This document shows, one piece after another, positions 3 to 15,937 of a stretch of 64,000 nucleotides of DNA (position 1 is its first letter; the number at the start of each line of letters is the position of its first letter). Made by a program: the position numbers and the translations under genes. Source of the DNA: Balneola sp. EhC07 (GTDB taxonomy: Bacteria; Bacteroidota; Rhodothermia; Balneolales; Balneolaceae); NCBI RefSeq assembly GCF_001650905.1, contig NZ_LXYG01000014.1:62001-126000 (forward strand), read 5' to 3'. A model generated the notes under the pieces. It made no database searches and had not been told where the DNA came from. It was given only the letters and a program-made list of their open reading frames with translations.

Positions 3-488
3 AAAGTTATCGGTGGCATTAAAAAGTCCTACTACAGCATTGAAACAAAGAACGGAAAGATCTTTGATTTAGAATTCGATCAAGAAGAACTGTTGTGGTC
101 TTTAGTACAAAATGATACCCAAAATAACGTGGTCATTGACCGGGTATTAGTACATATGAAAAGACACAAGCACCAACCTTCTGATGCTCATAGAATGACC
201 CCTATCCGTTTTGAAGTGTTTCCAAAAGAACTGATAGAAAGAACTACTCCCATAGAGTTTGCACTAATTGAAAGATTACGTCCTTACCGCTTTAAAAGAA
301 GTAAACATGGTTCTATTCAGGTAAGTCAGATTGAGACGAATCATTTGGAGAATACTATGATCACCAAGCACCTTAATTATTTAGTGGAAGATACCGAGCA
401 ACGTTTCTATCATTTAGTCTATACCTTAGATCAGTTAGACTGGAGATTCATGCAAGAAGTGGATCGAGAATTTTTATTTGTACGATGA
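3..488 (+). CDS. 5'-truncated protein of unknown function
   Basis: The frame is open from the first bases of the window without a start codon, so the N-terminus lies outside; 161 residues are visible. The chain is charged and rich in Arg, His and aromatic residues, with no membrane segment or signal peptide. Recognisable stretches are MTPIRFEVFPKELIE in the middle and DQLDWRFMQEVDREFLFVR at the end. I do not recognise a family. It ends 16 bp before the ATG of the next gene on the same strand, so the two are probably co-transcribed. It probably belongs to the integrated element whose right end is near 18462. Confidence 0.5.
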   Translation, partial: KVIGGIKKSYYSIETKNGKIFDLEFDQEELLWSLVQNDTQNNVVIDRVLVHMKRHKHQPSDAHRMTPIRFEVFPKELIERTTPIEFALIERLRPYRFKRSKHGSIQVSQIETNHLENTMITKHLNYLVEDTEQRFYHLVYTLDQLDWRFMQEVDREFLFVR

Positions 489-504
489 ACTAACAAACAG
501 AATA

Positions 505-1008
505 ATGAGTAAAGAGCAAAATCTTACCTTTCGAGACTTGCTTTTAGTATTGGTCTCAGAAATTGAAACGATTAAAAGGCTTTTCTATCAACAGGAAAAA
601 TATAAAGCCCTCATACATAGGTTATCTCAATACAATATTCATGAAAGGAGTCCGCTCCCTTCACAAAAGGAATTACTTGAAATTTTGGATTTGAATAGAT
701 CAAAACTCATGGGTTTGATGCAAGACCTATATGATGAATTCAGAACAGAAATATCACATTGGTATCCTATAAAAAAGACGGATGTGCATATTGCCGGAAA
801 ACAAAGAAACGGAGACTTTTTCCAAGTTGCCCCGGACGAAATAAAGCATATTCCTTCCGAAGGTGATCACATCAGTGTACCCTTTATTCGCAATGAGTAT
901 GGGAATGGAGGGTATTTTCAGGTAAAAATGGTAAAACATACGATTGAGGAAAACACCCATTCGATTGTAGTGTTTGTTGATGAAGACTTCAGCTTAGATG
1001 ATCTTTAA
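505..1008 (+). CDS. Hypothetical protein with possible winged-helix segment
   Basis: This is a 167-residue soluble protein. The ATG at 505 is preferred; an in-frame TTG at 478 would overlap the upstream gene and add only nine residues. Residues about 45-80 (SPLPSQKELLEILDLNRSK onward) look like a helix-turn-helix of the kind that follows a short N-terminal helical region. The C-terminal half is predicted beta-rich and I do not recognise it. It overlaps the convergent SRAP gene by 4 bp at the 3' ends. A regulatory or DNA-binding role is only an inference from the HTH-like segment. Confidence 0.5.
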   Translation: MSKEQNLTFRDLLLVLVSEIETIKRLFYQQEKYKALIHRLSQYNIHERSPLPSQKELLEILDLNRSKLMGLMQDLYDEFRTEISHWYPIKKTDVHIAGKQRNGDFFQVAPDEIKHIPSEGDHISVPFIRNEYGNGGYFQVKMVKHTIEENTHSIVVFVDEDFSLDDL

Positions 1009-1745
1009 CCAACATTCTTATTCATCGAACTTGCACCAAATAGAGTAGAAGGCTCTAATAGTTCAGGACCATTATTCCTTGAATTACTGACTTTATCAGA
1101 TGCTATATAGGTTTCCATGTCATCTACCGGATAGGGCTTCAACATATCTAACAAATATTCAGCAGAATGCTCAGGGTTTAGCCAATCTTCAAATTCACTT
1201 GGATGTAAAAAAGCAGGCATTCGATCATGTGCTTTTTCTACCATTGAATTAGGATCAGTAGTTATAATTGAAAAAGAACTCATTCCATCATTTGGGCTCA
1301 CCTTAGAATAAATACCTGCTGCACCCCAAAAGTTTGTACTCTTTGGATAGAAGTAATGGGCAGATTTACTTCCCTTCGCCCCGGTAAATTCATAGAATCC
1401 ATTCATAGGAACAATGCATCGGATCTGTTTCTCTTTAAAGTCTTTCCCCCACATTTTACTGTCTAAAATACGGTCGTCTCTTGTATTAAAGGTAGAATAC
1501 TTGTAGTTCGGCTTACCATCCTTAGGCAACCATTTCATGTACCACCAGTACATAGAATCCAGTACTCTTTTGCCTTCATCATTTACTCTACAAACAGGCA
1601 TCACAGATGTAGGTGCTACATTGTAGTTAGCAAATTCAAGCTCACCTTGCTTTCCGGGAGCTCGGTAATCCCCTCTATCCACAATGGCTAAAAATTCATC
1701 TATTTCTAACCGCTTTTTATATGAAAGATGATATCGTCCGCACAT
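1005..1745 (-). CDS. SOS response-associated peptidase (SRAP/YedK/HMCES family)
   Basis: SRAP proteins form a covalent thiazolidine link to abasic sites in single-stranded DNA through the N-terminal cysteine. The start at 1745 is chosen because it gives MCGRYHL, placing the catalytic Cys at position 2 after Met removal; an upstream in-frame start would bury it. Further family motifs are visible in order: YNVAPTSVMPV, a WWYMKWLP segment, TFNTRDD, the GFYEF segment with the active-site Glu, and AHDRMPAFL with the active-site His. Length (246 aa) is usual for the family. It lies between the WYL regulator (71 bp upstream) and a convergent gene. SRAP genes are frequent on mobile elements, which fits this region. 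Confidence 0.92.
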   Translation of the reverse strand: MCGRYHLSYKKRLEIDEFLAIVDRGDYRAPGKQGELEFANYNVAPTSVMPVCRVNDEGKRVLDSMYWWYMKWLPKDGKPNYKYSTFNTRDDRILDSKMWGKDFKEKQIRCIVPMNGFYEFTGAKGSKSAHYFYPKSTNFWGAAGIYSKVSPNDGMSSFSIITTDPNSMVEKAHDRMPAFLHPSEFEDWLNPEHSAEYLLDMLKPYPVDDMETYIASDKVSNSRNNGPELLEPSTLFGASSMNKNVG

Positions 1746-1816
1746 AATTACAAATGTTTTTAGGTTATAGAAAGGTATAAAATTTATAAAAATCTCAACA
1801 GGTTTTGACGCGAAAG

Positions 1817-2887
1817 TCAACTTTTATAACGAGGTCGGTCTTCAATAACTACTCCATGGTCCAAACTTTTTTCTTGAAAAGATATATAACTAGATGTAGC
1901 GCCGGAAATTCTATTGTAAATTTTCTCACTTAGATTTTCAGGTTTTATAACCTTTACCTTCTCCCCAAAAGATAATATTAAAGTTTCTAATTCATAATTT
2001 GGTATAACTTGAATCTCAACGATCAGGTATTCCTCTACCCATTGGGTTTTTTGGGTTGGATGAAGGGGTTTTGTAATAATATAAGGAGCCTGTTCCTTAG
2101 TGAATTCCAAAACTATCTTTTCAACTTTTCCCTCAGAAGGTCGGGTTACTCCAATGATATCGAAAAAGTGTTCATTCCAATCAATTTTAGATAGGCGATA
2201 GTCTCCCTGAATTTGTTCAATTTTTTGTATACGATCTAAAGCTAAGTTCCAAGTTGGTATTTCTAACTCTTTATTCAATCCAAATACAAACCAACGGTTA
2301 TTATATTGCTTCAGGAAATGTGGGTGAAAGGTGAGTTCGAAACTCTCTTCAGATTTAAAATCTTTGTATTCTACTTTTAAAACTAATTCATTCACAATAG
2401 CATCGTATAAATTTCTTAAATGTTCTAGGCCAATTAGATCGATATTAGACTCAAGACCAATGACTTCTTTAGATTGTTGTTTGAGTCCCAATCTATCTTG
2501 AATTACAGGTATTAATTCTTGAACCCATTCAAATTGTGGTGCTCCGGAAAACCTAGACAGTACAGAAATGGCAGAATCTATCTGACTTTTTTCATCTTCA
2601 TTTAGCGGTTGATTTGAAATAGAGAAGTCTTTTTCAGCGTATCGGTAATACACCTTTCTTCCGTCTTTGTGCCTTTCTAATGGAATTGACCAGCCCTGAT
2701 CACTTTCCATAAACTTAATATCATCATATAGCTGACGACGTTTTATTTCTGACTCTTTACCATTATACTCTTCGAGCGCTTTGTTGATTTCATTTAGTAA
2801 ATCTTGCCAGTAAAAATTTCGCCCGGTATTACTAAAGCAACGATCCAAAACTTGATAACGAAGTAAGGCATTTTTGTTAATAGACAT
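1817..2887 (-). CDS. WYL-domain transcriptional regulator
   Basis: This is a 356-residue regulator with an N-terminal winged-helix region (about 1-100, including RRQLYDDIKFMESDQGW) and a central WYL domain (about 160-240, NRWFVFGLNKELEIPTWNLALDR). A C-terminal WCX-like extension follows (about 255-330). WYL regulators commonly sit beside phage-defence loci and repress them until a ligand binds (BrxR/CapW type). Here it is divergent from a type I restriction-modification operon, with 72 bp between the two start codons. That gap holds a palindrome overlapping the operon promoter. I infer that it represses the 2960-14674 operon and perhaps itself; the ligand is unknown. Confidence 0.88.
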   Translation of the reverse strand: MSINKNALLRYQVLDRCFSNTGRNFYWQDLLNEINKALEEYNGKESEIKRRQLYDDIKFMESDQGWSIPLERHKDGRKVYYRYAEKDFSISNQPLNEDEKSQIDSAISVLSRFSGAPQFEWVQELIPVIQDRLGLKQQSKEVIGLESNIDLIGLEHLRNLYDAIVNELVLKVEYKDFKSEESFELTFHPHFLKQYNNRWFVFGLNKELEIPTWNLALDRIQKIEQIQGDYRLSKIDWNEHFFDIIGVTRPSEGKVEKIVLEFTKEQAPYIITKPLHPTQKTQWVEEYLIVEIQVIPNYELETLILSFGEKVKVIKPENLSEKIYNRISGATSSYISFQEKSLDHGVVIEDRPRYKS

Positions 2888-2900
2888 AAGAAGAATTTAA

Positions 2901-2921
2901 CTGTGCAGATTGAGTGCATAG
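2901..2921. promoter_or_regulatory. Candidate operator palindrome for the WYL regulator
   Basis: The arms CTGTGCA (2901-2907) and TGCATAG (2915-2921) are inverted copies matching at six of seven positions, with a 7-bp centre. The centre contains the TTG of the putative -33 element, so a dimer bound here would block RNA polymerase at the operon promoter. Assignment to the WYL protein is inferred from position alone. Confidence 0.45.
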
Positions 2922-2937
2922 TATAGTTATATTTTTG
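2910..2937 (+). promoter_or_regulatory. Bacteroidota-type promoter of the restriction operon
   Basis: TTG at 2910-2912 is followed after 17 bp by TATTTTTG at 2930-2937, which matches the Bacteroidota -7 consensus TAnnTTTG with the usual spacing to -33. Transcription would begin about 2944, leaving a leader of roughly 16 nt before the ATG at 2960. No Shine-Dalgarno sequence is visible in it. Confidence 0.55.
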
Positions 2938-2959
2938 AATCGAATTAAAAATTTCAGAT

Positions 2960-5536
2960 ATGAAAAGAGAATTAACCAAGATTTATAACTATTTAAGAGA
3001 AGTAAAGTCGAGTGGACTAGACAGCTTATTTGACTCCGAATTAGAATGGCGAATTGTATATTTGTTCTTGAGACGCTACAAAGCTTTGATGAATGAATTT
3101 ACTTTAGTTGACTTTGGTTTTAAAGTCGAAAAATATTTATCAGTAAATTCGAATGATCTAGATCCTTATAATGATTTATTTGAGCCTTTTTTCTCGTTTC
3201 TAAAAGAAAAGAATCCTAAGACTTTAAAGTCAATTGATTTACAAGCTTATATAAAAAAGGATTTGTATCAGTTAGCAGAAAGTGAAGTAATTCAGTTTGA
3301 AAATAAACTTAAAGAGTTTGAGGTCAATGATTTTTCTATAAAATCATTTTCAGTAGAAGAGTTTGATGAATTTTTCATTTCTGTTATAGAATTAACAAAA
3401 TCAAGAGATCGACATTCGTATTGGGAAAGATCTATCCCTAAAGAACTCTCTAAAATTATAAACAAAACAATAGCTGACACAAAGGTTGAGCTTTATGTTG
3501 GTGACCATACTGGGCAAATAGCATTTGATGGGAAAGAGGATAACAGCAAGAAAATAATATCAGGTGATGATGATACAATTCTATGGTATTATTTGAGGGT
3601 TATTCTTTCCGGAAATGTAAGTCTTGAATTCAAAATTTCAGAGTTTTCTGCACTTTTGAATGAAGAAGCTGACTTCAAATTTGTTTACCCACCTATTGGT
3701 AAAATTGATCTTACTAAATTGATTGGTAGGGATAAACCAAATTCAGGGAGAATGGTAGATTTTGAACTATTTTATGCAAACCAAGCAATCGATACTTCTA
3801 AAAGCAAAAGTAGGATATTGCTGTTAATGCCAATACATACATTATATAGCAATACAAAAGATTTTAAGGCATTCAGGAAAAAGGTCATTGATAATAAGTA
3901 TTTGAAGACTGTTATTTTGTTTCCTCAAGGTACTTTTAGTCCAGGGTCTTCTATTAGCTATTGCCTATTAGAGTTAGATACAAACAAAGAGAACCAAAAT
4001 ATAGTATTTATAAATGGACCAGAGATAGAGCCATATATCACCCCAAGTCAAACTGATAAGTATCAAAACTTCTTTAATGAAATAGGATCAAATTGGATCG
4101 ATAAATTTGGATTCTATCCCTACGTAACAAATGCTTCAATAAATGAAATAAAGCATAATAATTACTCATTAGCATTTTCCTACTATATTAATGCTTCTAA
4201 AAATGAGGTAATAAATACAAGAAACAGGGATGAAGAACTTGTTTCTTTGACTGATGTACTTGATGAGATAAAAACAGACTTAGTTAATGTAGTTAATGAG
4301 CCATTTATCGGAATGTCTCAGTTAGGTACTAATAGCACGGATTACAAACTCTCTGATAGCCAGCTACCTAAATATTCAGGTAAAGAAAAACTTAGACCAT
4401 TAAATCGGTCAGCCGTATTACTTGGAACAATTATTGGAAGTATTAAACCTTCAATATTTAAATACACAGGGCAAACTGTTTATACAAAATCAAATGTCAA
4501 AGTGTATGAAATACCTGAACTATTTGATGTGGACTATCTAATGTTGGAGTTGAGGTCTGAATTTGTTTCTAAACAGTTTCTAAAAATTCAAAGTGGTACA
4601 ACTATACCGAGTATTAGAACATCAGAACTAAAAAATATCTATTTGAGACTGCCGCCTCTTGAAACACAAAAAGAGATTGTACGTGAGTCGTACCAAGAGT
4701 TTGCTCAAGAAAAGTTAGAAGAGATAAAAAGTCTTAATAAAGATCTGGAATATATTGAGAAAGATGTGTTTTCATCTTTTGCTCATGATTTTGGAAAAAT
4801 ATTAGCTAATGCCCGAGCATCCATAGAAGTAATTGAGGGATATATTCAAGAATTAGCAAAAAGAAACATCATTTCTATGCAGGATTCTATCTTTTTTGAT
4901 GAAAAACCAACCGATGGGGAACGAGTTATTGATTTATTAAAAATCATGATTCAGAACCATGATCGTATCCAGGAGTCCCTACAGGAAGAAGTTAAATTCT
5001 TTACCTCAAGTAAAGTTGACCAAGTTGAAGAAATAGAATTGATTCCGATTATTTTAGATTGGAGTAGTAGACAGGTTCAAAAAAATTATAAAATATTTTT
5101 TCATGATGCCTTAGGGCTAAACTTTATCGAGCATAGTGGAAGATTACCATTATATAAAATAGAAGGTAATAAAGAGTATCTACTATCAGTATTAAATAAT
5201 TTTCTTGATAACGCCATAGAACATGGATTTAAAAAAGGATCATCCGATAATCAATTTATTATAATATTAGATGGTATTACTAATAGAGAAAGAGGAATCC
5301 TTAAAGTTCATGTAGGTAATAATGGACTCCCTTTCCCTTCGGATTTTACCTGTGAAGATTTCTTTAAGTTGAATCACAAAGGACCTCAAAGTTCAGGCCA
5401 AGGAAAAGGAGGAAATAGTATTAAAAGAAAACTAAATAAAATGGGGGCTTCTATCGATTGTAGTTCAAGTATATTAGATAAAAAGACTTTTCCAGTTCAA
5501 TTTGAAATTAAATTTAAAGCAGTAGAAATAGAATGA
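2960..5536 (+). CDS. Degenerate HsdM/HsdS-like protein fused to a histidine kinase
   Basis: This 858-residue chain has four readable parts. Residues 1-170 are helical and unassigned. Residues about 175-355 resemble the HsdM core: YPPIGKID (243-250) sits where NPPF would be, and RILLLMPIHTLYS to VIFINGPE (about 285-354) tracks the HsdM region of the neighbour at 6466. The SAM motif DPxxGSG is absent and NPPF is degraded, so methylation is unlikely. Residues about 405-575 look like an HsdS target-recognition half ending in LRLPPLETQKEIV. Residues 600-858 form a kinase module: H-box FAHDFGKIL (His609), N-box NFLDNAIEHG (Asn751), VGNNGLPFP and the G-box GQGKGGNS (813-820). It is followed with a 4-bp overlap by a receiver protein. 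I infer a sensor kinase that reads DNA or the Hsd complex. The gene looks more AT-rich than hsdM and hsdR. Confidence 0.8.
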   Translation: MKRELTKIYNYLREVKSSGLDSLFDSELEWRIVYLFLRRYKALMNEFTLVDFGFKVEKYLSVNSNDLDPYNDLFEPFFSFLKEKNPKTLKSIDLQAYIKKDLYQLAESEVIQFENKLKEFEVNDFSIKSFSVEEFDEFFISVIELTKSRDRHSYWERSIPKELSKIINKTIADTKVELYVGDHTGQIAFDGKEDNSKKIISGDDDTILWYYLRVILSGNVSLEFKISEFSALLNEEADFKFVYPPIGKIDLTKLIGRDKPNSGRMVDFELFYANQAIDTSKSKSRILLLMPIHTLYSNTKDFKAFRKKVIDNKYLKTVILFPQGTFSPGSSISYCLLELDTNKENQNIVFINGPEIEPYITPSQTDKYQNFFNEIGSNWIDKFGFYPYVTNASINEIKHNNYSLAFSYYINASKNEVINTRNRDEELVSLTDVLDEIKTDLVNVVNEPFIGMSQLGTNSTDYKLSDSQLPKYSGKEKLRPLNRSAVLLGTIIGSIKPSIFKYTGQTVYTKSNVKVYEIPELFDVDYLMLELRSEFVSKQFLKIQSGTTIPSIRTSELKNIYLRLPPLETQKEIVRESYQEFAQEKLEEIKSLNKDLEYIEKDVFSSFAHDFGKILANARASIEVIEGYIQELAKRNIISMQDSIFFDEKPTDGERVIDLLKIMIQNHDRIQESLQEEVKFFTSSKVDQVEEIELIPIILDWSSRQVQKNYKIFFHDALGLNFIEHSGRLPLYKIEGNKEYLLSVLNNFLDNAIEHGFKKGSSDNQFIIILDGITNRERGILKVHVGNNGLPFPSDFTCEDFFKLNHKGPQSSGQGKGGNSIKRKLNKMGASIDCSSSILDKKTFPVQFEIKFKAVEIE

Positions 5537-6462
5537 ATAGACCTATAAAAATACTCTTTCTAGATGACGAAGTTGATGATTTACTACCAGATATAACCTT
5601 AGTAGCTAAGCAAAACCGTGTCATTATAAAAAAAGCGATCAGTAACTTTGAAGAAGGGAATAAATATATAAGAAAACATTACAAAGACATTGATGCAATA
5701 ATTTTAGATGGCTTTTTTCACGTAAAACAGGATTCATCGGATAAAAAAGATATAAGAGCTTTAAAGGAAACTGTAGACGAATTAACTAAGCTTCTTTATA
5801 GGGAAAAAATTAGAATTCCCTTTTGTGTTCTTACCGGATACTTGGAAGATCTTAGTAAAGATTCATTACTATCTAATATTAAAGTCTTTAAAAAGGGTGG
5901 TTCATTTAAAGAGATGTTCGATTACCTAAAAAAGCAGGTAGCCAACAACGAAGATTATCAGATAAAAAGTGAGTACAATGAAATTTTTGAGCTTTTTGAT
6001 AAGGGATTATTACCTGATGACAAAGAAGAAGACCTAGTTGAAATTCTGAAAAAAGTAAATAGTAAGGCAAAGTATAATGACGATGCTGCTTTCACACCAA
6101 TCCGAAAAATGTATGAAGCAATGGTCAATGAAATGCATGATCAAGCTTACAACAGAAATAAAAATCAAGATATAGTACCGGCAGGGCTATATGATAGAGC
6201 AGATAAATTGAGCATCAGTTGGTCTTGGTTTTATTTGTCAGGTTACGATGTAAAGCAAGGAAACGAGGTTGTTATAAATGCTCGTAGTGAAGCAGTTTGG
6301 CCATCTCATATTGCAAACTTGTCGAAAATGATGATTGAGATTACACAAGAAGGTTCGCATGATTATCCAGAAGATGTCCATCACTATGCATATAAAAGTA
6401 CAGTATTTGCTCTGCTAGAATTATTACTTTGGTATAAAGAATTCATGCAAAACTATTCATAA
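5533..6462 (+). CDS. Response-regulator receiver protein with unknown C-terminal domain
   Basis: The protein has 309 residues. The N-terminal receiver domain (about 5-135) has every phosphotransfer residue: the acidic pair in FLDDE (Asp11, Asp12), the phospho-acceptor in AIILDGFF (Asp59), the Thr in CVLTGY (Thr101) and the Lys in KVFKKGG (120/121). The segment between Asp59 and Thr101 is longer than usual. Residues about 140-309 are alpha-helical and aromatic-rich, with no DNA-binding HTH I can recognise, so output may be by protein contact. It starts within the stop codon of the kinase gene (ATGA overlap) and ends 3 bp before hsdM, so it is almost certainly co-translated with both. It is the natural phosphoryl acceptor for the kinase fusion. 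Confidence 0.82.
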   Translation: MNRPIKILFLDDEVDDLLPDITLVAKQNRVIIKKAISNFEEGNKYIRKHYKDIDAIILDGFFHVKQDSSDKKDIRALKETVDELTKLLYREKIRIPFCVLTGYLEDLSKDSLLSNIKVFKKGGSFKEMFDYLKKQVANNEDYQIKSEYNEIFELFDKGLLPDDKEEDLVEILKKVNSKAKYNDDAAFTPIRKMYEAMVNEMHDQAYNRNKNQDIVPAGLYDRADKLSISWSWFYLSGYDVKQGNEVVINARSEAVWPSHIANLSKMMIEITQEGSHDYPEDVHHYAYKSTVFALLELLLWYKEFMQNYS

Positions 6463-6465
6463 CCC

Positions 6466-8880
6466 ATGCCCATAAAAAAATCAGATCTTTACGCCTCCAT
6501 TTGGAAATCCTGTGACGAACTTCGTGGAGGAATGGATGCTTCGCAGTACAAGGATTATGTGCTCTCTATTCTCTTTATAAAATATGTGTCTGATAAGTAT
6601 GCTGATGCCGGAGAATATGCTCCTATTGTAATCCCGGATGGTTCCTCTTTTCAAGATATGATAAAGTTGAAGGGACAAGTGGATATTGGAGATCAAATCA
6701 ATAAAAAGATCATAGCTCCTTTGGCAGAAGCGAATGACTTGCGTGGGGTGATTGACCAAACGGATTTCAATGATGATGAAAAGCTGGGCTCCGGCAAAGA
6801 AAAAGTAAACCGCCTCAGTAATCTGATTGGAATTTTTCAGGATGCAAATCTGGATTTTGGTGGAAACAACGCCGGGGACGATGACCTGCTTGGTGACGCT
6901 TACGAATATCTGATGCGCAATTTTGCTACCGAGTCTGGTAAGAGCAAAGGACAGTTTTATACACCGGCAGAGGTATCCCGGATATTAGCGAATGTTATTG
7001 GAGTGGAAAAAGCAGACAATCCGTCTTTAACCGCTTATGATCCTACGGCGGGATCAGGTTCGCTGATTCTTAAAGTTGCCGATGAAGCACCTGTTGATAT
7101 TACTATTTACGGGCAAGAAATGGATGTAGCCACGACCGCACTTGCAAAGATGAATATGGTACTGCATAATCGTCCTGAGGCCGTTCATGACATTATGAGA
7201 GGCAATACTTTAGCCGATCCGAAATTCTCAGAGAATGGTGAGTTGAAACGCTTTGACTATGTAGTAGCCAATCCGCCTTTTTCTTATAAATCATGGACCA
7301 ACGGACTCGATCCTAAAAACGATCTATACAATCGATTTGAAGGCTTTGGAATTCCGCCAACTAAGAACGGCGATTATGCTTTTTTGCTCCATATTGTAAA
7401 GTCGTTGAAAAATACCGGAACAGCGGCTGTTATTCTTCCCCATGGAGTTTTGTTCAGAGGAAATGCTGAAGGAAAGATCAGACAGAACTTGATTGAAAGA
7501 GGATATATAAAAGGGATTATTGGCTTACCTGCCAACCTGTTTTATGGAACGGGTATTCCCGCTTGTATTTTGGTGCTGGATAAAGAACAATCCGGCTCTC
7601 GTGATGGAATTTTTATGATTGATGGAAGTGAAGGCTATATCAAGGACGGAAATAAAAACCGACTTCGGGAACGGGATATTCACAAAATAGTGGATGTGTT
7701 CCGGGAGCAGAAAGCCGAGGGTGGGTTTTCACGCTTTGTGCCCAATGATGAAATCCAAAAGAACGAGTTCAACCTGAATATCCCACGCTATATTGATAAC
7801 AGCACCGAAGAAGATATTCAGGATATTGAAGGACATTTGAAAGGCGGGATTCCGATGCGGGATGTGGAAGGTATGAACCAATTTTGGGACGTATATCCTG
7901 GATTGAAAGACGAATTGTTTTCCCCACTTCGGGAAGGTTACCTGAAATTGAAAACAGAAAAGGATGTCATCAACGAAGTGATTTTCAGCTATCCGGCATT
8001 TGTGAGCTACAGCAAGGAATTGGCTAAACTCTTTACTGAATGGAAGCAGGCACATTACGATTCTATGAAGTCCATTGATGAAGACGTTCGCCCTAAAGCG
8101 CTTATAGCAGAAATTGCTGAAGACCTGCTAAAACGCTACCGGGATAAAGCATTGATCGATCCATACGATATTTACCAGCACCTGATGAATTACTGGTCTG
8201 AAACCATGCGCGATGACGTGTATATAATTGTTGAAGATGGATGGACTGCCACGCTGGAGCCTGTTCGCAACAGTAAGGGGAATATCAAAAAGGGAGAATT
8301 TACCTGCGAGCTAATTCCTAAAGAATTGGTGATTAACCGCTACTTTCCAAAAGAACACCAAGAGATTGAACAACTAAAGCAGCAGCAGGAAGAGGCGGCT
8401 CAGGTTCAGGAAGAGTTAGAGCAGGAACATGCGGTAGAAGGTGGATTGCTGGAAGAAGCGCTCAGCGACGCCGGCAACGTGACGAAAGGAGAACTCACCA
8501 AACGCATGAAGGAAATTAAAGGCGATGAAGATTTTTCAGATGAATTTGAGGTGATGAAAAGCTACAAAACCGCCTACGATAACGAACGCAAAGCCAAGAG
8601 TTCAGTTAAAAAGGCGGAGAAAGAATTAGACAAGCAGGTAATAGACAAATACAAAGAACTCACCGAAGATGAAGTGCAAACTTTGGTAGTAGATGACAAG
8701 TGGCTGCCCACCATTAAATTCCACATCGATGGCGAAGTAGATGCCATTTCTCGAAGCCTTACCCAGCGGGTGAACGAGTTGGCCGGGCGGTACGACAAAG
8801 CCGTTGTGGAAATTGATAAAGAAGCGGATGAGCTGGAAACCCGTGTTCAGTCTCACCTGGAAGCGATGGGGGTTGTATAG
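6466..8880 (+). CDS. hsdM: Type I restriction-modification DNA methyltransferase subunit
   Basis: HsdM transfers a methyl group from S-adenosylmethionine to N6 of adenine as part of the M2S complex. The N-terminal helical domain begins SDLYASIWKSCDELRGG. The SAM-binding motif I is YDPTAGSGSL (191-200) and the catalytic motif IV is ANPPF (268-272). GQFYTPAEV (162-170) is also typical. At 804 residues the protein is about 300 longer than a classical HsdM. The extra C-terminal part (about 500-804) carries a Gln/Glu-rich coiled-coil stretch near 620-660 and a second helical stretch near 700-800. It follows the receiver gene by 3 bp and precedes hsdS by 5 bp. Confidence 0.96.
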   Translation: MPIKKSDLYASIWKSCDELRGGMDASQYKDYVLSILFIKYVSDKYADAGEYAPIVIPDGSSFQDMIKLKGQVDIGDQINKKIIAPLAEANDLRGVIDQTDFNDDEKLGSGKEKVNRLSNLIGIFQDANLDFGGNNAGDDDLLGDAYEYLMRNFATESGKSKGQFYTPAEVSRILANVIGVEKADNPSLTAYDPTAGSGSLILKVADEAPVDITIYGQEMDVATTALAKMNMVLHNRPEAVHDIMRGNTLADPKFSENGELKRFDYVVANPPFSYKSWTNGLDPKNDLYNRFEGFGIPPTKNGDYAFLLHIVKSLKNTGTAAVILPHGVLFRGNAEGKIRQNLIERGYIKGIIGLPANLFYGTGIPACILVLDKEQSGSRDGIFMIDGSEGYIKDGNKNRLRERDIHKIVDVFREQKAEGGFSRFVPNDEIQKNEFNLNIPRYIDNSTEEDIQDIEGHLKGGIPMRDVEGMNQFWDVYPGLKDELFSPLREGYLKLKTEKDVINEVIFSYPAFVSYSKELAKLFTEWKQAHYDSMKSIDEDVRPKALIAEIAEDLLKRYRDKALIDPYDIYQHLMNYWSETMRDDVYIIVEDGWTATLEPVRNSKGNIKKGEFTCELIPKELVINRYFPKEHQEIEQLKQQQEEAAQVQEELEQEHAVEGGLLEEALSDAGNVTKGELTKRMKEIKGDEDFSDEFEVMKSYKTAYDNERKAKSSVKKAEKELDKQVIDKYKELTEDEVQTLVVDDKWLPTIKFHIDGEVDAISRSLTQRVNELAGRYDKAVVEIDKEADELETRVQSHLEAMGVV

Positions 8881-8885
8881 AATTG

Positions 8886-10028
8886 ATGACCGAAGAGAAG
8901 AAGGATTATAGACAAACCGAGATTGGGTTGATTCCAGAGGATTGGGAAGTTGAAACAGTGGGTGAAGCATTTGAAATAAAAAACAATTTAAGATTACCCA
9001 TTAGTAGAAATGTCCGAAAGTCAATGCAGGGAAAATATCCTTACTATGGGCCAACAGGAATCCAAGATTACATTGATGAATATAGGGTTGAAGGTAAACA
9101 TGCTTTAATAGGTGAAGATGGTGACCACTTTCTCAAATGGGATAGTATGTCAATGACACTTTTGGTGGAGGGGAAGTTTAATGTTAATAACCATGCTCAT
9201 ATCGTTAAGGGTGTAAAAAATTTAACCGAGTGGTTTTATTACTTCTTTGGTCATCGAGATCTTACATCTCATCTGAAGAGGCAAGGAGCAGGACGTTATA
9301 AATTAAATAAGAGTACTTTAATAGAGTTGCCTTGTGCTGTTCCGCCACTTACCGAACAGGAAGCCATAACCAATGCCCTCAGCGATGTGGACGACCTGAT
9401 CCGCTCCTTAGACCTGCTCATACAAAAGAAAGAAGCCATCAAAAAAGGCTCCATGCAGCTGCTCCTTACCGGCAAAACACGCCTGCCCGGGTTTGATGGG
9501 GAGTGGGAGGTGAAGACGTTAGAGGATGTTCTAAATTATGAGCAACCTCCAAAGTATATTGTGAAAGCTGATATTGAAGATCAAGAGGTTGGTGTGCCTG
9601 TTCTTACGGCTAATAAATCCTTTATTTTGGGTTATACAACTGAAACTTTCGGGGTTTATACTGATACACCTGTTGTAGTCTTTGATGATTTTACAACCCT
9701 ATCAAAATATGTCGATTTTAATTTCAAGATAAAGTCTTCTGCTATTAAACTATTAAAACCAAAGTCATCTGCAGTTAACTTGAGGTTTATATATGAATTG
9801 ATACAGATTTTGAAGTTTTCTACAGGTGATCATAAGCGATATTATATTTCAGAATACCAGCACATTGAAATTGAGCTACCTCCAAAGGGAGAGCAAGATG
9901 CAATAGTAGAAATCTTGTCCGACATGGACCTGGAACTCCAAACTCTCCGCCAAAAGCGGGAAAAGTACAAGCAGGTTAAACAGGGAATGATGCAGGAATT
10001 GCTAACCGGAAAGACGAGGTTGGTATGA
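8886..10028 (+). CDS. hsdS: Type I restriction-modification specificity subunit
   Basis: HsdS carries two target-recognition domains (TRDs) that each read half of a bipartite DNA site. TRD1 covers about 20-155 and TRD2 about 205-335. Each is followed by the conserved spacer helix: PPLTEQEAITNALSDVDDL and PPKGEQDAIVEILSDMDLE. Both helices end in near-identical LLTGKTRL repeats. The ATG at 8886 is preferred over the TTG immediately before it. TRD-coding DNA looks more AT-rich than the spacer-coding DNA, as expected from TRD exchange. The 3' end overlaps the accessory nuclease gene by 4 bp. Specificity cannot be predicted from sequence. Confidence 0.95.
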   Translation: MTEEKKDYRQTEIGLIPEDWEVETVGEAFEIKNNLRLPISRNVRKSMQGKYPYYGPTGIQDYIDEYRVEGKHALIGEDGDHFLKWDSMSMTLLVEGKFNVNNHAHIVKGVKNLTEWFYYFFGHRDLTSHLKRQGAGRYKLNKSTLIELPCAVPPLTEQEAITNALSDVDDLIRSLDLLIQKKEAIKKGSMQLLLTGKTRLPGFDGEWEVKTLEDVLNYEQPPKYIVKADIEDQEVGVPVLTANKSFILGYTTETFGVYTDTPVVVFDDFTTLSKYVDFNFKIKSSAIKLLKPKSSAVNLRFIYELIQILKFSTGDHKRYYISEYQHIEIELPPKGEQDAIVEILSDMDLELQTLRQKREKYKQVKQGMMQELLTGKTRLV

Positions 10029-10921
10029 ACATTTGGCGACTTAACATTAAAACAGACTCGGTTGATATTAATCCAAGACAGTTTTGTTTTAATCAAAGCA
10101 TTATGGGGTTAGGTTGGTCAGTGGAATCAAAATCCAAGCATTTAGAATGGGATGAATATTATGAAAAGGCACATAAGAATTATAAAGAAGAAAGGAATGA
10201 TAAAGGCTGGTGGCGAGCTTTAAATGCCATTAAAAATCGGGTTAAAATTAATGATTTGTGCTGGTCTAGGGATTTAAATGGAATTTACTATCTAGGAAGG
10301 ATCACAGGAGAATGGCAATATATTAATGAGGAAATAAACCGAAAGGCAGATATAGTAAATGTTAGACCTATTGAATGGGTAAGAGTAGGGGAAAATGATT
10401 CAGTACCAGGTACTATCGTAAATAGATTCATAAGAGGCGGTACGCTAGAAAAGGTGAATGGTGCAACTACTTGTGAATTTTCTAAGTTTTTATATAATCA
10501 GCTTACTGATGATGAATTTTACGAATTCAAACATATAGAAGCGGATTTCTTTTCCTTAATACATTCAGATGATTGTGAAGATATTATAGGATTACTTCTT
10601 CAAGATATGGGATACCAACTTATTCCAAGTTCGTGCAAGAAAAGCACAGTGAACTATGAATTTGTTTTGAAGCATAAAAAAGATGGGCATAAAGCAGTTG
10701 CTCAAGTTAAAAAGGGGAAAGAAGATTTAATTATTGAGAATTATAAAAATCTTGACTGTAAGGTATATTTATTTACAACTAAAGGGCGATATATAGGCAA
10801 GTCTTTATCGAATGTATTTATAATCGATATTGAAAAAGTAGAAAGGTTTATTCGGAGTAACTGGAAAGTTTTACCTGATAAAGTCCAAACTTGGATAAAT
10901 ATTAGAGAATCATTGAATTAA
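10025..10921 (+). CDS. Accessory protein: PUA/EVE-like N-domain plus Mrr-like nuclease domain
   Basis: The protein has 298 residues. The N-terminal half (about 1-150) has features seen in PUA/EVE-like folds: an initial WRLNI strand, the DLCWSRDLNGIYYLGRI block and a VNVRPIEW strand. Such domains often bind modified bases; this is a weak fold guess. The C-terminal half (about 170-275) resembles Mrr-type restriction endonucleases: a helix EDIIGLLLQDMGY, then VNYEFVLKHKK and AVAQVKKGK. These could supply an E..QxK active site (Glu212, Gln227, Lys229) instead of D..ExK. It overlaps hsdS by 4 bp and ends 14 bp before hsdR, so it is an operon member, though it is not a standard type I subunit. It looks AT-rich compared with hsdR. 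Confidence 0.6.
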   Translation: MNIWRLNIKTDSVDINPRQFCFNQSIMGLGWSVESKSKHLEWDEYYEKAHKNYKEERNDKGWWRALNAIKNRVKINDLCWSRDLNGIYYLGRITGEWQYINEEINRKADIVNVRPIEWVRVGENDSVPGTIVNRFIRGGTLEKVNGATTCEFSKFLYNQLTDDEFYEFKHIEADFFSLIHSDDCEDIIGLLLQDMGYQLIPSSCKKSTVNYEFVLKHKKDGHKAVAQVKKGKEDLIIENYKNLDCKVYLFTTKGRYIGKSLSNVFIIDIEKVERFIRSNWKVLPDKVQTWINIRESLN

Positions 10922-10935
10922 AACACGAAATATAA

Positions 10936-13900
10936 ATGACCGACATTGGCCAAATAGAACGCAGCTCCCAGAATCGAATCGTACAACTATTCAGAGACCA
11001 ATTAGGTTACGAATATCTCGGTGACTTTCAGGATCGCTCAGGGAACGCCAATGTTGAGGAAGAATATCTGAGACCGTTTTTAAAGCAACAAGGTCATTCC
11101 CAAGCTAAAATTGATAAAGCATGCTTTGAGCTAAATAAAGCTACGGTTATACAAACCGAAGATTTATACGACAGTAATAAAGAGGTCTATAACTTACTTC
11201 GGTATGGAGTAGATGTACGAGAACAACAAGGAGAGCATAAAGAAACGGTAAAACTGATAGATTGGGAACATCAGGAGAACAATCATTTTGCCATTGCCGA
11301 GGAAGTAACGGTAGAGGGCAAAAACACCAAAAGACCGGATATTGTACTTTATATCAATGGAATTGCCGTTGGCGTGATTGAATTAAAGCGTTCAAAAGTA
11401 TCTATTGCAGAAGGAATTCGGCAAAATCTGGACAATCAATCAGAGAATTTTATCAAGCCTTTCTTCAACACCATGCAGTTGATAATGGCAGGCAACGATT
11501 CCGAGGGTCTCCGTTACGGTACTACCAAAACACCGGAGAAATACTATCTGAAATGGAAAGAGCCTTTTGACGGTGAAGCAGATTATGTGCTCGACAAGCA
11601 TATCCTTCAGCTGTGCAACAAAGAACGCTTGCTGGAACTGATCCATGATTTTATCCTGTTTGATGGTGGTACTAAAATTATTTCTCGTCCCCATCAATAT
11701 TTCGGAGTAAAAGCCAGTCGGGAAAATATTCGAAAGCGGGAAGATGGAATTATCTGGCACACTCAGGGAAGTGGTAAAAGCTTAACCATGGTTTGGTTGG
11801 CGCAATGGATTCGTGAGCAGGTGGAAGATTCAAGAGTGGTGGTAATCACGGATCGTACCGAATTGGACAAGCAAATTACTCGGGTATTTAATGATGCGGA
11901 AGAGCCCATGATCAGAGCAAAAAGTGGTTCCGATTTGCTGGATAAACTGAACAGCCATGAGTATCCGCTTATATCATCATTAGTACATAAGTTTGGTGGA
12001 GGAGAAGACGGAGATGTGGATCAGTTTCTAAACGATATTCAAAAACATCTTCCGGCAAATTTTAAAGCGAAGGGAGATATCTATGTATTTGTGGATGAAT
12101 GTCATCGTACACAATCCGGGAAACTCCACCGGGCAATGAAAGCCATTCTTCCCGATGCTATGTTCATTGGTTTTACCGGAACGCCTTTGTTAAAGCGAGA
12201 TAAGAAAACAAGTCTGGAAGTCTTTGGTCCATATATCCACACGTACAAGTTTGATGAAGCGGTGGAAGATAAAGTAGTGCTAGATTTGAGATACGAAGCC
12301 AGAGATATCGATCAAAGAATAACCGATCAGGACAGTATTGACGAGTGGTTTGATGCCGAGACGCGCGGACTCAACGATTACGCAAAAATGCAGCTCAAAA
12401 AACGCTGGGGTACGCTCAGGCAAGTATTGAGCTCAAAAGAACGACTGGCGAAAGTAACACAAGATATTTTTAAGGATTTCAGAGTACGACCAAGGTTAAA
12501 ATCCGGCGAAGGGAACGCTATGTTAGTGGCATCATCAGTGTTAGAAGCGTGTAAGTATTATGAGCTGTTCCAACAAACCGACTTGAAAGATCATTGTGCG
12601 GTTGTTACTTCCTTTGAGCCGAATATCAATGACATCAAAGGAGAAGAAACCGGCGAAGGTGAAACCGAGGAGCAACTAAAGTATCGGATTTACATGGATA
12701 TGCTGGGCGGAATGAAAACCGAAGAGTTTGAAGAGGCTGTCAAAAAACAATTTATCGAAGAGCCGGCGCGAATGAAGCTACTAATAGTGGTGGAGAAACT
12801 GCTAACGGGTTTTGATGCTCCACCGGCTTCCTATCTGTATATCGATAAATCCATGCAGGATCATGGTTTGTTTCAGGCAATTTGTCGTGTAAACCGATTA
12901 GACGATGACAGCAAGGAATACGGATACATCATTGACTACAAAGATTTGTTCAAAAGTCTGGAAGAATCCATCGAAGCTTATACAAGCGGTGCTTTTGAAG
13001 GCTATGACAAAGATGATGTAGAAGGATTATTAAAAGACCGCTATAAACAAGCAAAAGAACATCTTGACGATACACTGGATCAGGTTGAGGCGTTGTGTGA
13101 GCCTGTTCATCCACAAACTCAGAAAACTTTTTATGAATTCTTTGGGTGTGATTTTGAGGGTAAAACGGATGAAGAGATTAAAGAGGACGAAGAAAAAAGA
13201 ATTAAACTCTACAAGATAGTTTCCAGTTTAGTAAGAGCGTATGCTGATATCGCCAATGAAATGAGCCGGGCAGGATACACCGATCGGCAAGCTGCTCGCA
13301 TCAAACAAAGAGTGAAGTTTTTCTCAGACCTGAAAGAAGAAATAAAACTAGCCAGCGGAGATTACATTGACTTGAAGATGTATGAACCCGGTATGCGTAA
13401 TCTCATTGACATGTATATTGATGCAGATCATAGCAAGAAAGTGAGTAAACTGGATGATTTCACCTTGGTAGACCTTATTGTGAATGAAGGTTTGGAAGGA
13501 GTAGATGAGGCTACCGGAGGAGAAAGTAAAAAAAATCCGGAAGGTGTATCAGAGAAGATTGAGAATAATATGAGGAAAGTAATTATTCAGGAGCGACCGG
13601 GAAATCCGAAATACTATGACCGAATGTCGGCTTTGCTTCAAGATCTGATTGAACAGAGAAAGCAGGAAGCAATAGCTTATGCCAAGTATCTTGAAAAACT
13701 TGCTGAACTAGCCCGAAAAGTTAAAAGAGTGGATGGCCAGGAAGCGTACCCGACTTCAATTAATACAGATGGAAAAAAAGCTATTTATGACACTCTTGAT
13801 GGTGATCTGGAACTTTCTGTTACGGTAGATGAAACCGTTAAATATAATAGTAAAGACGGCTGGAGAAGTAATTCAATTAAAGAGCGTCAACTTCAAGGAG

Positions 13901-13977
13901 CGCTTTATAAGGTGCTTCCTGAAAATATTGAGTTAGATATGGTGATGGATGTAATACGGAATCAAGATGAATACTAG
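10936..13977 (+). CDS. hsdR: Type I restriction endonuclease motor subunit
   Basis: HsdR translocates DNA with ATP and cleaves away from unmethylated sites. The N-terminal nuclease core is visible as KRPDIVLYI (Asp135) followed by GVIELKRSK (Glu149, Lys151), a PD-ExK pattern. Superfamily 2 helicase motifs follow: P-loop HTQGSGKS (275-282), VFVDECH (384-390), GFTGTPLL, and QAICRVNRLD as motif VI. The C-terminal helical part (about 700-1013) would contact HsdM. At 1013 residues it has the usual length and all key residues, so it should be active. It overlaps the downstream metallopeptidase gene by 11 bp. Confidence 0.97.
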   Translation: MTDIGQIERSSQNRIVQLFRDQLGYEYLGDFQDRSGNANVEEEYLRPFLKQQGHSQAKIDKACFELNKATVIQTEDLYDSNKEVYNLLRYGVDVREQQGEHKETVKLIDWEHQENNHFAIAEEVTVEGKNTKRPDIVLYINGIAVGVIELKRSKVSIAEGIRQNLDNQSENFIKPFFNTMQLIMAGNDSEGLRYGTTKTPEKYYLKWKEPFDGEADYVLDKHILQLCNKERLLELIHDFILFDGGTKIISRPHQYFGVKASRENIRKREDGIIWHTQGSGKSLTMVWLAQWIREQVEDSRVVVITDRTELDKQITRVFNDAEEPMIRAKSGSDLLDKLNSHEYPLISSLVHKFGGGEDGDVDQFLNDIQKHLPANFKAKGDIYVFVDECHRTQSGKLHRAMKAILPDAMFIGFTGTPLLKRDKKTSLEVFGPYIHTYKFDEAVEDKVVLDLRYEARDIDQRITDQDSIDEWFDAETRGLNDYAKMQLKKRWGTLRQVLSSKERLAKVTQDIFKDFRVRPRLKSGEGNAMLVASSVLEACKYYELFQQTDLKDHCAVVTSFEPNINDIKGEETGEGETEEQLKYRIYMDMLGGMKTEEFEEAVKKQFIEEPARMKLLIVVEKLLTGFDAPPASYLYIDKSMQDHGLFQAICRVNRLDDDSKEYGYIIDYKDLFKSLEESIEAYTSGAFEGYDKDDVEGLLKDRYKQAKEHLDDTLDQVEALCEPVHPQTQKTFYEFFGCDFEGKTDEEIKEDEEKRIKLYKIVSSLVRAYADIANEMSRAGYTDRQAARIKQRVKFFSDLKEEIKLASGDYIDLKMYEPGMRNLIDMYIDADHSKKVSKLDDFTLVDLIVNEGLEGVDEATGGESKKNPEGVSEKIENNMRKVIIQERPGNPKYYDRMSALLQDLIEQRKQEAIAYAKYLEKLAELARKVKRVDGQEAYPTSINTDGKKAIYDTLDGDLELSVTVDETVKYNSKDGWRSNSIKERQLQGALYKVLPENIELDMVMDVIRNQDEY

Positions 13978-14674
13978 AAACTATCAGTTCACAGTATCCG
14001 ATATTCTTGTAGATGTAGTTCAAAAAGATATTGGGAATATGCATCTGGCGGTTTATCCACCAACGGGCAGAGTGCGAGTGTCTTCTCCATTGACTTATAG
14101 CAAAGAAAACATACGCTTATTTGTAGTATCGAAATTGACTTGGATCAAGAAGCATATCCGCGCTATGAAAAATCAGGTTCGGGAGCCGAGAAGAGAATTT
14201 ATTCAAGGAGAAAGTCACTGGGTAGAAGGAAAGCGATACCTGCTGAATATCATTGAAAAGGATGAAAAGCCCTGCGTCCATATTCGAAATAAGCAATATC
14301 TGGATTTGCAGATTCGCCCGGGAACAGAACGAGATAAGCGGGAAGAGATAATCCAGGAATGGTACCGGGAAAGACTTAAACGCAAAATACCTGAGCTAAT
14401 TGCAAAGTGGGAAAATCGCTTAAAAGTTGAAATTAGTGATTGGGGTATAAAACTGATGAAAACAAAGTGGGGTTCTTGCACGGTTGAAAACAAAAGAATC
14501 TGGATTAACCTTGAATTAGCTAAAAAGGAGTATGAACTGCTGGACTATGTAGTACTCCATGAAATGGCTCACTTGATTGAGAGAACACACAATGACCGAT
14601 TTAAAGCAGTACTGGATAATCATATGCCATCATGGAAAGGTAAAAGAGAGCTATTAAATGAGGTTGTGTATTAG
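13967..14674 (+). CDS. YgjP-type (DUF45) zinc metallopeptidase
   Basis: This is a 235-residue soluble protein. The zinc-binding motif is VLHEMAHLIERTHNDRF near residues 194-210, giving HExxH plus a downstream His, and KWGSCTVENKRIW precedes it as in this family. Its ATG lies inside the 3' end of hsdR, so it is translationally coupled. YgjP-like proteases frequently follow hsdR in type I loci, and I infer a role in controlling or recycling the restriction complex. Only 28 bp separate its stop from the stop of the convergent gene at 14703. Confidence 0.85.
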   Translation: MNTRNYQFTVSDILVDVVQKDIGNMHLAVYPPTGRVRVSSPLTYSKENIRLFVVSKLTWIKKHIRAMKNQVREPRREFIQGESHWVEGKRYLLNIIEKDEKPCVHIRNKQYLDLQIRPGTERDKREEIIQEWYRERLKRKIPELIAKWENRLKVEISDWGIKLMKTKWGSCTVENKRIWINLELAKKEYELLDYVVLHEMAHLIERTHNDRFKAVLDNHMPSWKGKRELLNEVVY

Positions 14675-14702
14675 CTTTTAACTCACCTTATCTTAACATG
14701 GG

Positions 14703-15191
14703 TTAAACACTCTTTATATGATCATATATTGATTTTATGTAATTATTAGTATGCATGCTGGGTTTTTGAACTTCTTCATGTTTAAGATCTGTTAACCCCG
14801 CTTTATCTAGGATGATCTTAATAGCTTTTATTTTTTCACTAATTAATGACTTCTCACCATTATCTAGAGAAGTTACATTTGGCATCAATGCAATCTCCAA
14901 AAGTTCCTCGACAGCAGAATCTAGATGACGTAGTAGTTTAGCTTGGGCAAGCTCTATTCTTTCTCGTCTGTTTTCTAGGATTCTTACTCCTATACTTTCG
15001 TCATAATCAGAAGCTCTAGTAATCCAGTTGTATTTAGAGCTCCATCTCTTTAATTGTGATACATAACTCTCAGGTTTGGTATACATTTGGCATACTTTCA
15101 GCATACTTCTAGAAGGACCTAGTTCTAAATAAGTAACAAAGAATTTATAAGCTAAGGATGACTCACTAGGGTATTTATTCCATGAATTCAT
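14703..15191 (-). CDS. Phage terminase small subunit-like protein
   Basis: The protein has 162 residues. The N-terminal 55 residues (SSLAYKFFVTYLELGPSRS, then a W-rich SQLKRWSSKYNWITRASDYD) match the pattern of terminase small subunits and related HTH proteins, in which a Trp-rich helix precedes a conserved RAxxYD. The remainder is helical. Phage satellites often encode a small terminase to redirect packaging, and it is the last gene of a leftward set that begins with the integrase at 18285. An alternative is a general HTH protein of mobile elements. Confidence 0.5.
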   Translation of the reverse strand: MNSWNKYPSESSLAYKFFVTYLELGPSRSMLKVCQMYTKPESYVSQLKRWSSKYNWITRASDYDESIGVRILENRRERIELAQAKLLRHLDSAVEELLEIALMPNVTSLDNGEKSLISEKIKAIKIILDKAGLTDLKHEEVQKPSMHTNNYIKSIYDHIKSV

Positions 15192-15196
15192 TTTAG

Positions 15197-15937
15197 TTAG
15201 GGTTGGTTGTTAAAGTTTTCATCAAGTATTTTTATGAACTTATTCCAATCGTGTGTTTCCCAATCAATATTTAAAACTAATTCACATCCTACTGTTACAA
15301 ATTGATCAATCTGTATTCTATTTTTTTTCCTAATCTTTTCTAATTCGGCAATCAATACATGCTCAGGATATTTTGCAATATGTTTTGGTATTCCTTTTAA
15401 TACCTTTTCCATAGCTGAGCTAATGCTATTGTTATCGGTATTGTTAGTGTTATTGGAAATGTTATTGTTAATGCCCCCTGACCTGGGCCTGGTCTGGGGC
15501 AGAGGAAGACCCGAGTAACCTTTCTTTTCTTCTTTGATAGCTTTATAAAAGGAAGGAATATTGATATGATTAGGATACGTTTCTATAAACTCTTCGAGTA
15601 AATTATGATATACGAGCAATTTATAACATGAGAGACCTAGATTGTTATTACCAGCTATTGTTGTCCAAGTGACTTTAATAAAATCCTTTATCCAGATACT
15701 ATTGTTATTCAGACTCCTTATTCTTTCTTTATCACAATTAATTTTATCTAAAAAGTTATTAATATCGATAACTGAATTACAATGAAATTCAGACAGTTTT
15801 GGACTATGCTCATATACTCCAGCGTTGTCACAATGGCAATTAATAAACCAATAGAATAGCTTTTCTGAAGCATCTAGTTCATTAAAATATCTGTAATCCC
15901 ATACTTTGATCTCAATCATTCTTCGTTTGGTATCCAT
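15197..15937 (-). CDS. Mobile-element replication protein (phage replisome-organiser-like)
   Basis: The protein has 246 residues. The N-terminus (IEIKVWDYRYFNELDASEK, then LFYWFINCHCDNAGVYEH) follows the pattern of phage replication initiators of the replisome-organiser type, where an early strand and winged helix are followed by an L.W..CDNxG motif. A low-complexity Asn/Thr linker (about residues 153-170) separates this from a C-terminal helical domain resembling a DnaD-type tail. It lies 5 bp upstream of the terminase-like gene and overlaps the preceding gene by 1 bp (TAATG). A role in excision-linked replication of the element is inferred. Confidence 0.5.
   Translation of the reverse strand: MDTKRRMIEIKVWDYRYFNELDASEKLFYWFINCHCDNAGVYEHSPKLSEFHCNSVIDINNFLDKINCDKERIRSLNNNSIWIKDFIKVTWTTIAGNNNLGLSCYKLLVYHNLLEEFIETYPNHINIPSFYKAIKEEKKGYSGLPLPQTRPRSGGINNNISNNTNNTDNNSISSAMEKVLKGIPKHIAKYPEHVLIAELEKIRKKNRIQIDQFVTVGCELVLNIDWETHDWNKFIKILDENFNNQP

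Follow-up and report, generated by a model that had tools for sequence, protein, structure and literature searches.

The 64,000-nucleotide stretch analysed here (the window; Balneola sp. EhC07, contig NZ_LXYG01000014.1, positions 62,001 to 126,000) carries at the head of a type I restriction operon a pair of genes coding for a predicted histidine kinase fused to HsdM- and HsdS-like domains and for its receiver partner. The open reading frame of the fusion kinase (2960..5536, forward strand, 858 residues) overlaps that of the 309-residue receiver protein (5533..6462, forward strand) by 4 base pairs (bp), and hsdM starts at 6466, only 3 bp past the receiver stop, all as described in an earlier note made from the letters of the window. 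We propose that kinase and receiver form a two-component module that serves restriction operons and whose sensor adjusts the restriction unit, a reading that we consider plausible if short of probable. Its basis lies in the sequences: the architecture, the kept phosphotransfer residues, the lost catalysis, the recurrence and modularity of the pair, and a conserved palindrome.

From the N-terminus, the fusion kinase comprises an HsdM-like part (residues ~1-480), half an HsdS consisting of a recognition arm and the conserved helix (~425-590; 4232..4729), a kinase hairpin (~600-682) and an ATP-binding domain with N and G boxes (~690-855; 5027..5524). This domain order, proposed in the earlier note, is borne out by three kinds of comparison. 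Pfam places the C-terminal half of N6_Mtase at residues 271-415 (2.6e-13), Methylase_S at 443-575 (6.7e-10) and HATPase_c at 738-850 (2.1e-5; 25.3 bits, narrowly missing the cut-off of 26.4 bits). A profile of the kinase family retrieves from the PDB the HsdM of EcoR124I (1.1e-35), HsdS chains (~4e-10) and the kinases CovS and VicK (6.5e-9). In profile-profile alignments residues 1-481 match the HsdM proteins of the operons with 100% probability; the kinase N-terminus therefore corresponds to a whole HsdM, N-terminal domain included, and the M/S-like sensor, although present as claimed, is not limited to residues 175-575. The AlphaFold2 model of the kinase is weak (predicted local distance difference test, pLDDT, 52; only 5 input sequences) and leaves the HsdS part unresolved; Foldseek searches with it return both kinases (ZraS, 8.6e-9) and type I M subunits (7eew, 2.5e-7; 7bto, 6e-7), and in it the HsdS-part helix 567-595 is nearly continuous with helix 600-634, which carries His609.

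Judged by its motifs, the methylase part of the kinase, which corresponds to an N6-adenine methylase (residues ~151-420; 3410..4219), is catalytically dead. An active HsdM carries motif I (DPxxGxG) together with motif IV (NPP[FYW]), present as DPTAGSG and NPPF in the HsdM encoded by the operon itself; the window kinase lacks motif I and any [NDS]PP, with YPPI in place of motif IV, and none of the 19 family members described below has both motifs. The YPPI noticed earlier is just one among many substitutions at motif IV in the family. In one relative (locus L095; L numbers denote individual loci) motif I is kept as DPVAGSGG and motif IV is lost. The predicted phosphorylated histidine, His609 (codon 4784..4786), lies in the hairpin and is invariant in 19 of 19 loci, the N box is kept in all of them, and kinases in the PDB are found both by profile and by fold (Z up to 14.6). 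A few relatives are extended at the N-terminus: the L079 kinase (4694-7507) begins with a HARE-HTH domain (Pfam, 4e-5, slightly below the cut-off), for which a connection with DNA modification has been proposed, and similar extensions are visible by eye in the kinases of L027, L028, L029 and L080.

The partner protein has no significant Pfam match and no recognisable DNA-binding domain. Its receiver (residues ~1-133) was found with the family profile of the protein (3jte, E 0.005), and residues ~2-123 of a low-confidence model (pLDDT 57; likewise from 5 sequences) align to receivers with a best Z of 8.4. D11/D12, the predicted phosphate acceptor Asp59 (codon 5707..5709), T101 and K121 are located in the window protein, in agreement with the earlier note. 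By automatic alignment, Asp59, Thr/Ser101 and Lys121 are conserved, along with His609 and the N box of the kinase, in all 19 loci, though distant kinases are only 16-20% identical to that of the window; the acidic pair is altered to E or N in L076 and L080. The second gene thus does encode a receiver, but one followed by a helical, possibly HEPN-like domain (~140-309) that had been overlooked, as had the divergent WYL regulator and its operator candidate described below. Many relatives are ~70-90 residues longer, and by eye their extra end resembles a cold-shock/OB domain, on which Pfam is silent.

The C-terminal domain aligns to a helical region of Csm6' (8pe3_B; Z 7.7 over 114 residues, from the pLDDT-57 model only), which suggests a HEPN-like bundle, and R191 and E195 are kept in 18 and H276 in 19 of the 19 loci. 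These features could fit a guard-and-effector arrangement, in which the kinase would be an Hsd decoy sensing failed restriction, as surviving unmodified DNA or an anti-restriction DNA mimic bound to its inactive M/S region, whereupon the receiver protein would arrest the cell by means of its HEPN-like domain, much as PrrC guards EcoprrI. HEPN nucleases are indeed known in type I operons (PrrC; PMC3710099), and the pair also accompanies defence units other than type I. On the other hand, the nuclease motif Rx4-6H, as defined for HEPN nucleases (PMC3710099), is absent from the receiver protein, where H276 is present and the motif arginine is missing; furthermore, the model is of low confidence, and a Z below 8 between helical bundles can arise by chance. 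We therefore regard a guard of this kind as rather unlikely, and return to the proposed adjustment of the restriction unit with the evidence from other genomes.

Searches of Bacteroidota genomes and plasmids yielded 18 further loci with adjacent kinase and receiver genes, 19 in total and ~17 independent ones because two locus pairs are near-duplicates. The two genes are adjacent in all of them, with a spacing of at most 12 bp, and their hosts are Balneolaceae (including records named Gracilimonas and Aliifodinibius), other Bacteroidota families and, on a plasmid, Myroides. In Bacteroidota, where prevalence was sampled, the pair was found by its kinase in 8 of 92 family genomes, by the receiver C-terminal profile in 9 of 394 phylum genomes, and in 8 of 396 genomes of a second order. 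The plasmid search yielded only three Myroides records, and relatives were absent from the viral contigs and phage records searched; a scan of genome contigs with the whole kinase gave no match, and one with a close receiver alignment gave four loci, all already in the set.

An hsdM gene follows the pair on the same strand in 14 of the 19 loci, as the immediately next gene in 11 and often within 15 bp, so that most homologues stand first in hsd operons and not away from them. The link to type I systems suggested in the earlier note therefore stands, but it is not exclusive. In L095 (298-9080) the genes for McrB and McrC come directly after the pair, with a reverse transcriptase gene behind them; the operon runs on into AAA, PLD, radical SAM and UvrD helicase genes in L027 and into NERD/UvrD helicase pieces in L092. 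L076 has hsdR upstream of the pair and hsdM-like pieces ~8 kb downstream, past a recombinase gene, and in L079 a NACHT gene precedes the pair, past which no gene looks restriction-like. Loci such as L079 and L027, with no type I genes adjoining the pair, would also suit an unrelated passenger, that is, a signalling pair with a role of its own that merely accumulates in defence islands. We hold this to be very improbable given a sensor built from HsdM and HsdS parts, the hsdM genes downstream in most loci, often at such short distances, and the McrBC genes in another.

The pair behaves as a module that is re-used by different restriction operons, as its sequence relationships indicate. With near-duplicate loci dropped, distances between kinases correlate with those between receivers (r 0.56, Mantel p 0.0005) and not with those between the HsdM proteins (r 0.08, p 0.23), and HsdM and HsdS distances are themselves correlated (r 0.83). 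The pair is also AT-richer than the adjoining hsdM in 14 of 14 loci (in the window, a GC content of 31-32% vs 44%), and the recognition arm of the kinase is nearer to the arms of other kinases than to any HsdS. Together, the lack of co-evolution with HsdM, the AT-richness and an arm that shows no preference for the cognate HsdS imply that the pair has moved between restriction units.

Divergent from the pair in the window is a gene for a regulator with WYL (Pfam, 9.9e-9) and WCX (2.3e-9) domains (1817..2887, reverse strand), and members of the same family lie beside the pair in 12 of the 19 loci. New here is a palindrome, TGTGCA-N7-TGCAYA, before the kinase gene. In the window it is a candidate operator (TGTGCAGATTGAGTGCATA; 2902..2920) with the arms TGTGCA and TGCATA around the spacer GATTGAG, located in the WYL-kinase intergenic region at a distance of 39 bp from the kinase start, and this is the single exact match in the whole 3.62 Mb genome. 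The core TGCA-N7-TGCA occurs near the WYL/kinase junction in 12 of 12 WYL loci, and 11 of these sites are at most two mismatches from TGTGCA-N7-TGCACA, with three mismatches in L091. Most palindromes lie 39-61 bp ahead of the kinase start, even where the kinases are only 20% identical, and five Balneolaceae copies align across the entire site. L078 has the palindrome and no WYL gene within the stretch read. By eye, a TAnnTTTG promoter element follows the palindrome in the window, L030 and L031; a scan for sigma-70 promoters gave fewer matches than in shuffled sequences. L076 has three palindrome-like sites (9901, 10157 and 10421) in steps of ~260 bp, intergenic and downstream of the pair, past an opposite-strand gene.

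Three loci (L028, L029 and L080) have neither WYL gene nor palindrome and carry instead a divergent CARF-AAA-HTH sigma-54 activator of RtcR type (483 residues), assigned by PADLOC in L028 (RtcR_PspF2, 4.3e-134), by a sigma-54 interaction domain in L028 and L080, and by matching sequence in L029. On inspection by eye, L080 also shows a sigma-54-like promoter (TTGGTCTGAGAATTGCA). A regulator gene is thus directly upstream of or divergent from the pair in 15 of 19 loci. Such an arrangement, with its conserved palindrome and a different regulator class in three loci, could reflect a transcriptional loop in which the phosphorylated receiver would act on the neighbouring regulator, mostly WYL, and thereby control operon expression, for which CapK/CapS provides a precedent of kinase pairs controlling defence operons (PMC13373217). 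We consider this doubtful: the receiver would have to recognise two unrelated regulator classes; in L110 a close WYL relative (14597-15631, 80% identical) and the same palindrome front a large AAA/PLD/SNF2-helicase defence operon (genes 86-14038) that has no pair; and in L027 a second palindrome lies ahead of the AAA operon, separate from the site before the pair, so that the WYL protein may control the pair instead of being controlled by it. Given these palindromes away from the pair, the WYL protein probably regulates defence units in general, with the pair as one of those under its control. We accordingly rejected the WYL gene and the pair as an inseparable unit, as L110 has one part of it without the pair and other loci combine the pair with the CARF/sigma-54 regulator. 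The window genome has a second WYL gene, on contig 16, whose neighbours have no relation to the pair.

Downstream of the pair, hsdM (6466..8880), hsdS (8883..10028; Pfam Methylase_S in two stretches, 6.1e-29) and hsdR (10936..13977; TIGR00348, 1.5e-165), all on the forward strand, form a complete type I restriction-modification system (6466-13977), as follows from the intact motifs of HsdM and HsdR. Between hsdS and hsdR lies PDC-S02, a PADLOC candidate defence gene (10025..10921, forward strand; PDLC04816, 1.2e-110), with a GC content of 32% vs 44% for hsdM and 41% for hsdR, on which account it looks like a separate insertion. The final operon gene encodes a YgjP-like metallopeptidase (13967..14674, forward strand; Pfam, 7.9e-57), and a YgjP-like gene follows hsdR in L028 as well. 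Beyond the WYL gene are an SRAP/YedK-type gene (1005-1820; Pfam, 3e-46) and a gene for 176 residues (478-1008) with no Pfam match, relatives of which also follow the WYL gene in L026 and L031.

How, then, might the pair adjust restriction? Here we infer the dimer geometry, the ligand, the direction of the signal and the target of the partner. Kinases of this type act as dimers; a dimer of the fusion kinase would bring together two dead HsdM and two half-HsdS arms and should thus resemble an M2S complex. Such a clamp could hold DNA without methylating it, or bind M/S subunits or Ocr-like anti-restriction DNA mimics, and its occupancy would be relayed along the HsdS helix into the kinase hairpin, altering autophosphorylation of His609 and phosphotransfer to Asp59 in the receiver protein. 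Once phosphorylated, this protein would adjust, via its helical C-terminal domain, the restriction unit encoded 3 bp downstream, presumably by acting on the Hsd complex or the hsd mRNA and not as a classical DNA-binding regulator, with the WYL protein at the palindrome setting transcription of the unit. In this specific form, a phosphorelay in which a dimeric M2S mimic reads the state of DNA modification or anti-restriction proteins and controls or backs up restriction through the receiver, the proposal is tentative.

Several observations weigh against the reading of the pair as a sensor that adjusts restriction. Between three and five loci have no type I genes adjoining the pair, and the structure models are weak for both proteins (pLDDT 52 and 57). 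Two candidate origins were also rejected: the recognition arm is no copy of the cognate HsdS, which is the best-ranked HsdS in just 1 of 12 loci, and the kinase does not derive from the cognate hsdM, their distances being uncorrelated and the operon's own HsdM rarely the closest. As the arm does not track the cognate HsdS and the kinase and HsdM trees are uncorrelated, both a reading of the operon's own site and a private contact with its own HsdM are disfavoured; the pair, as far as these comparisons go, probably does not share the site read by the neighbouring HsdS.

It has long been asked how restriction systems avoid self-damage and respond to phage evasion. A kinase that uses an inactive version of the adjoining enzyme as its sensor offers a concrete answer, in which restriction could be under phosphorelay control, sensing the modification state or the integrity of the enzyme; if so, restriction operons would gain a way to know whether restriction works. 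Many Bacteroidota carry the module, in combination with different restriction units; it comes with a candidate operator and can be moved as two genes. Cells might use it to monitor the condition of their DNA or of the restriction system and to adjust defence.

A full-text literature search returned no description of such a kinase-receiver module, and as it reached few subscription papers or preprints, one may exist beyond its range. A whole HsdM and half an HsdS are recognisable by profile in the kinase, which differs from type I subunits in having lost the catalytic motifs and in its fusion to a kinase module. Detocs brings two-component chemistry to defence, with a separate effector that degrades ATP; by that definition the window operon differs, as Pfam finds no ATP-degrading phosphorylase domain among its proteins and the kinase sensor is of another kind. 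Nor is it a methylation-associated defence system (MADS), since MAD5 reaches 18.5 bits in the window vs a curated cut-off of 400 bits. MORC/paraMORC ATPases share the GHKL fold and are likewise encoded in restriction operons, but they form another GHKL branch with an S5 domain (PMC2292703), and neither a phosphorylated histidine nor a partner with a receiver has been described for them. WYL regulators of the BrxR/CapW type have an inverted-repeat site beside defence genes (PMC9122601, PMC9122588), as does the WYL/WCX regulator here, whose candidate site differs in being TGCA-N7-TGCA and in having a kinase-receiver pair under it. PrrC of the EcoprrI operon, a fusion of an ABC ATPase and a HEPN nuclease bearing Rx4-6H (PMC3710099), is likewise an extra component of an hsd operon, possibly watching the Hsd complex as the pair might, and a HEPN-type output is possible for the pair; the pair differs in consisting of two proteins, in its phosphorelay and in lacking Rx4-6H. 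CapK/CapS, an HTH-STAS-GHKL kinase with a STAS-winged helix-turn-helix (wHTH) repressor, is activated by single-stranded DNA, works through serine phosphorylation and has been shown to control expression; it resembles the pair in that a GHKL-family kinase and its substrate are encoded ahead of immune operons, including restriction systems (PMC13373217). The pair here instead combines a histidine kinase with an HsdM/HsdS sensor and an aspartate receiver in which neither a STAS nor a wHTH family was found. Defining features of CapK/CapS, PrrC-EcoprrI and Detocs are all lacking here; CapK/CapS is nearest in role, PrrC-EcoprrI nearest in logic should the kinase prove to be a guard, and Detocs nearest in chemistry.

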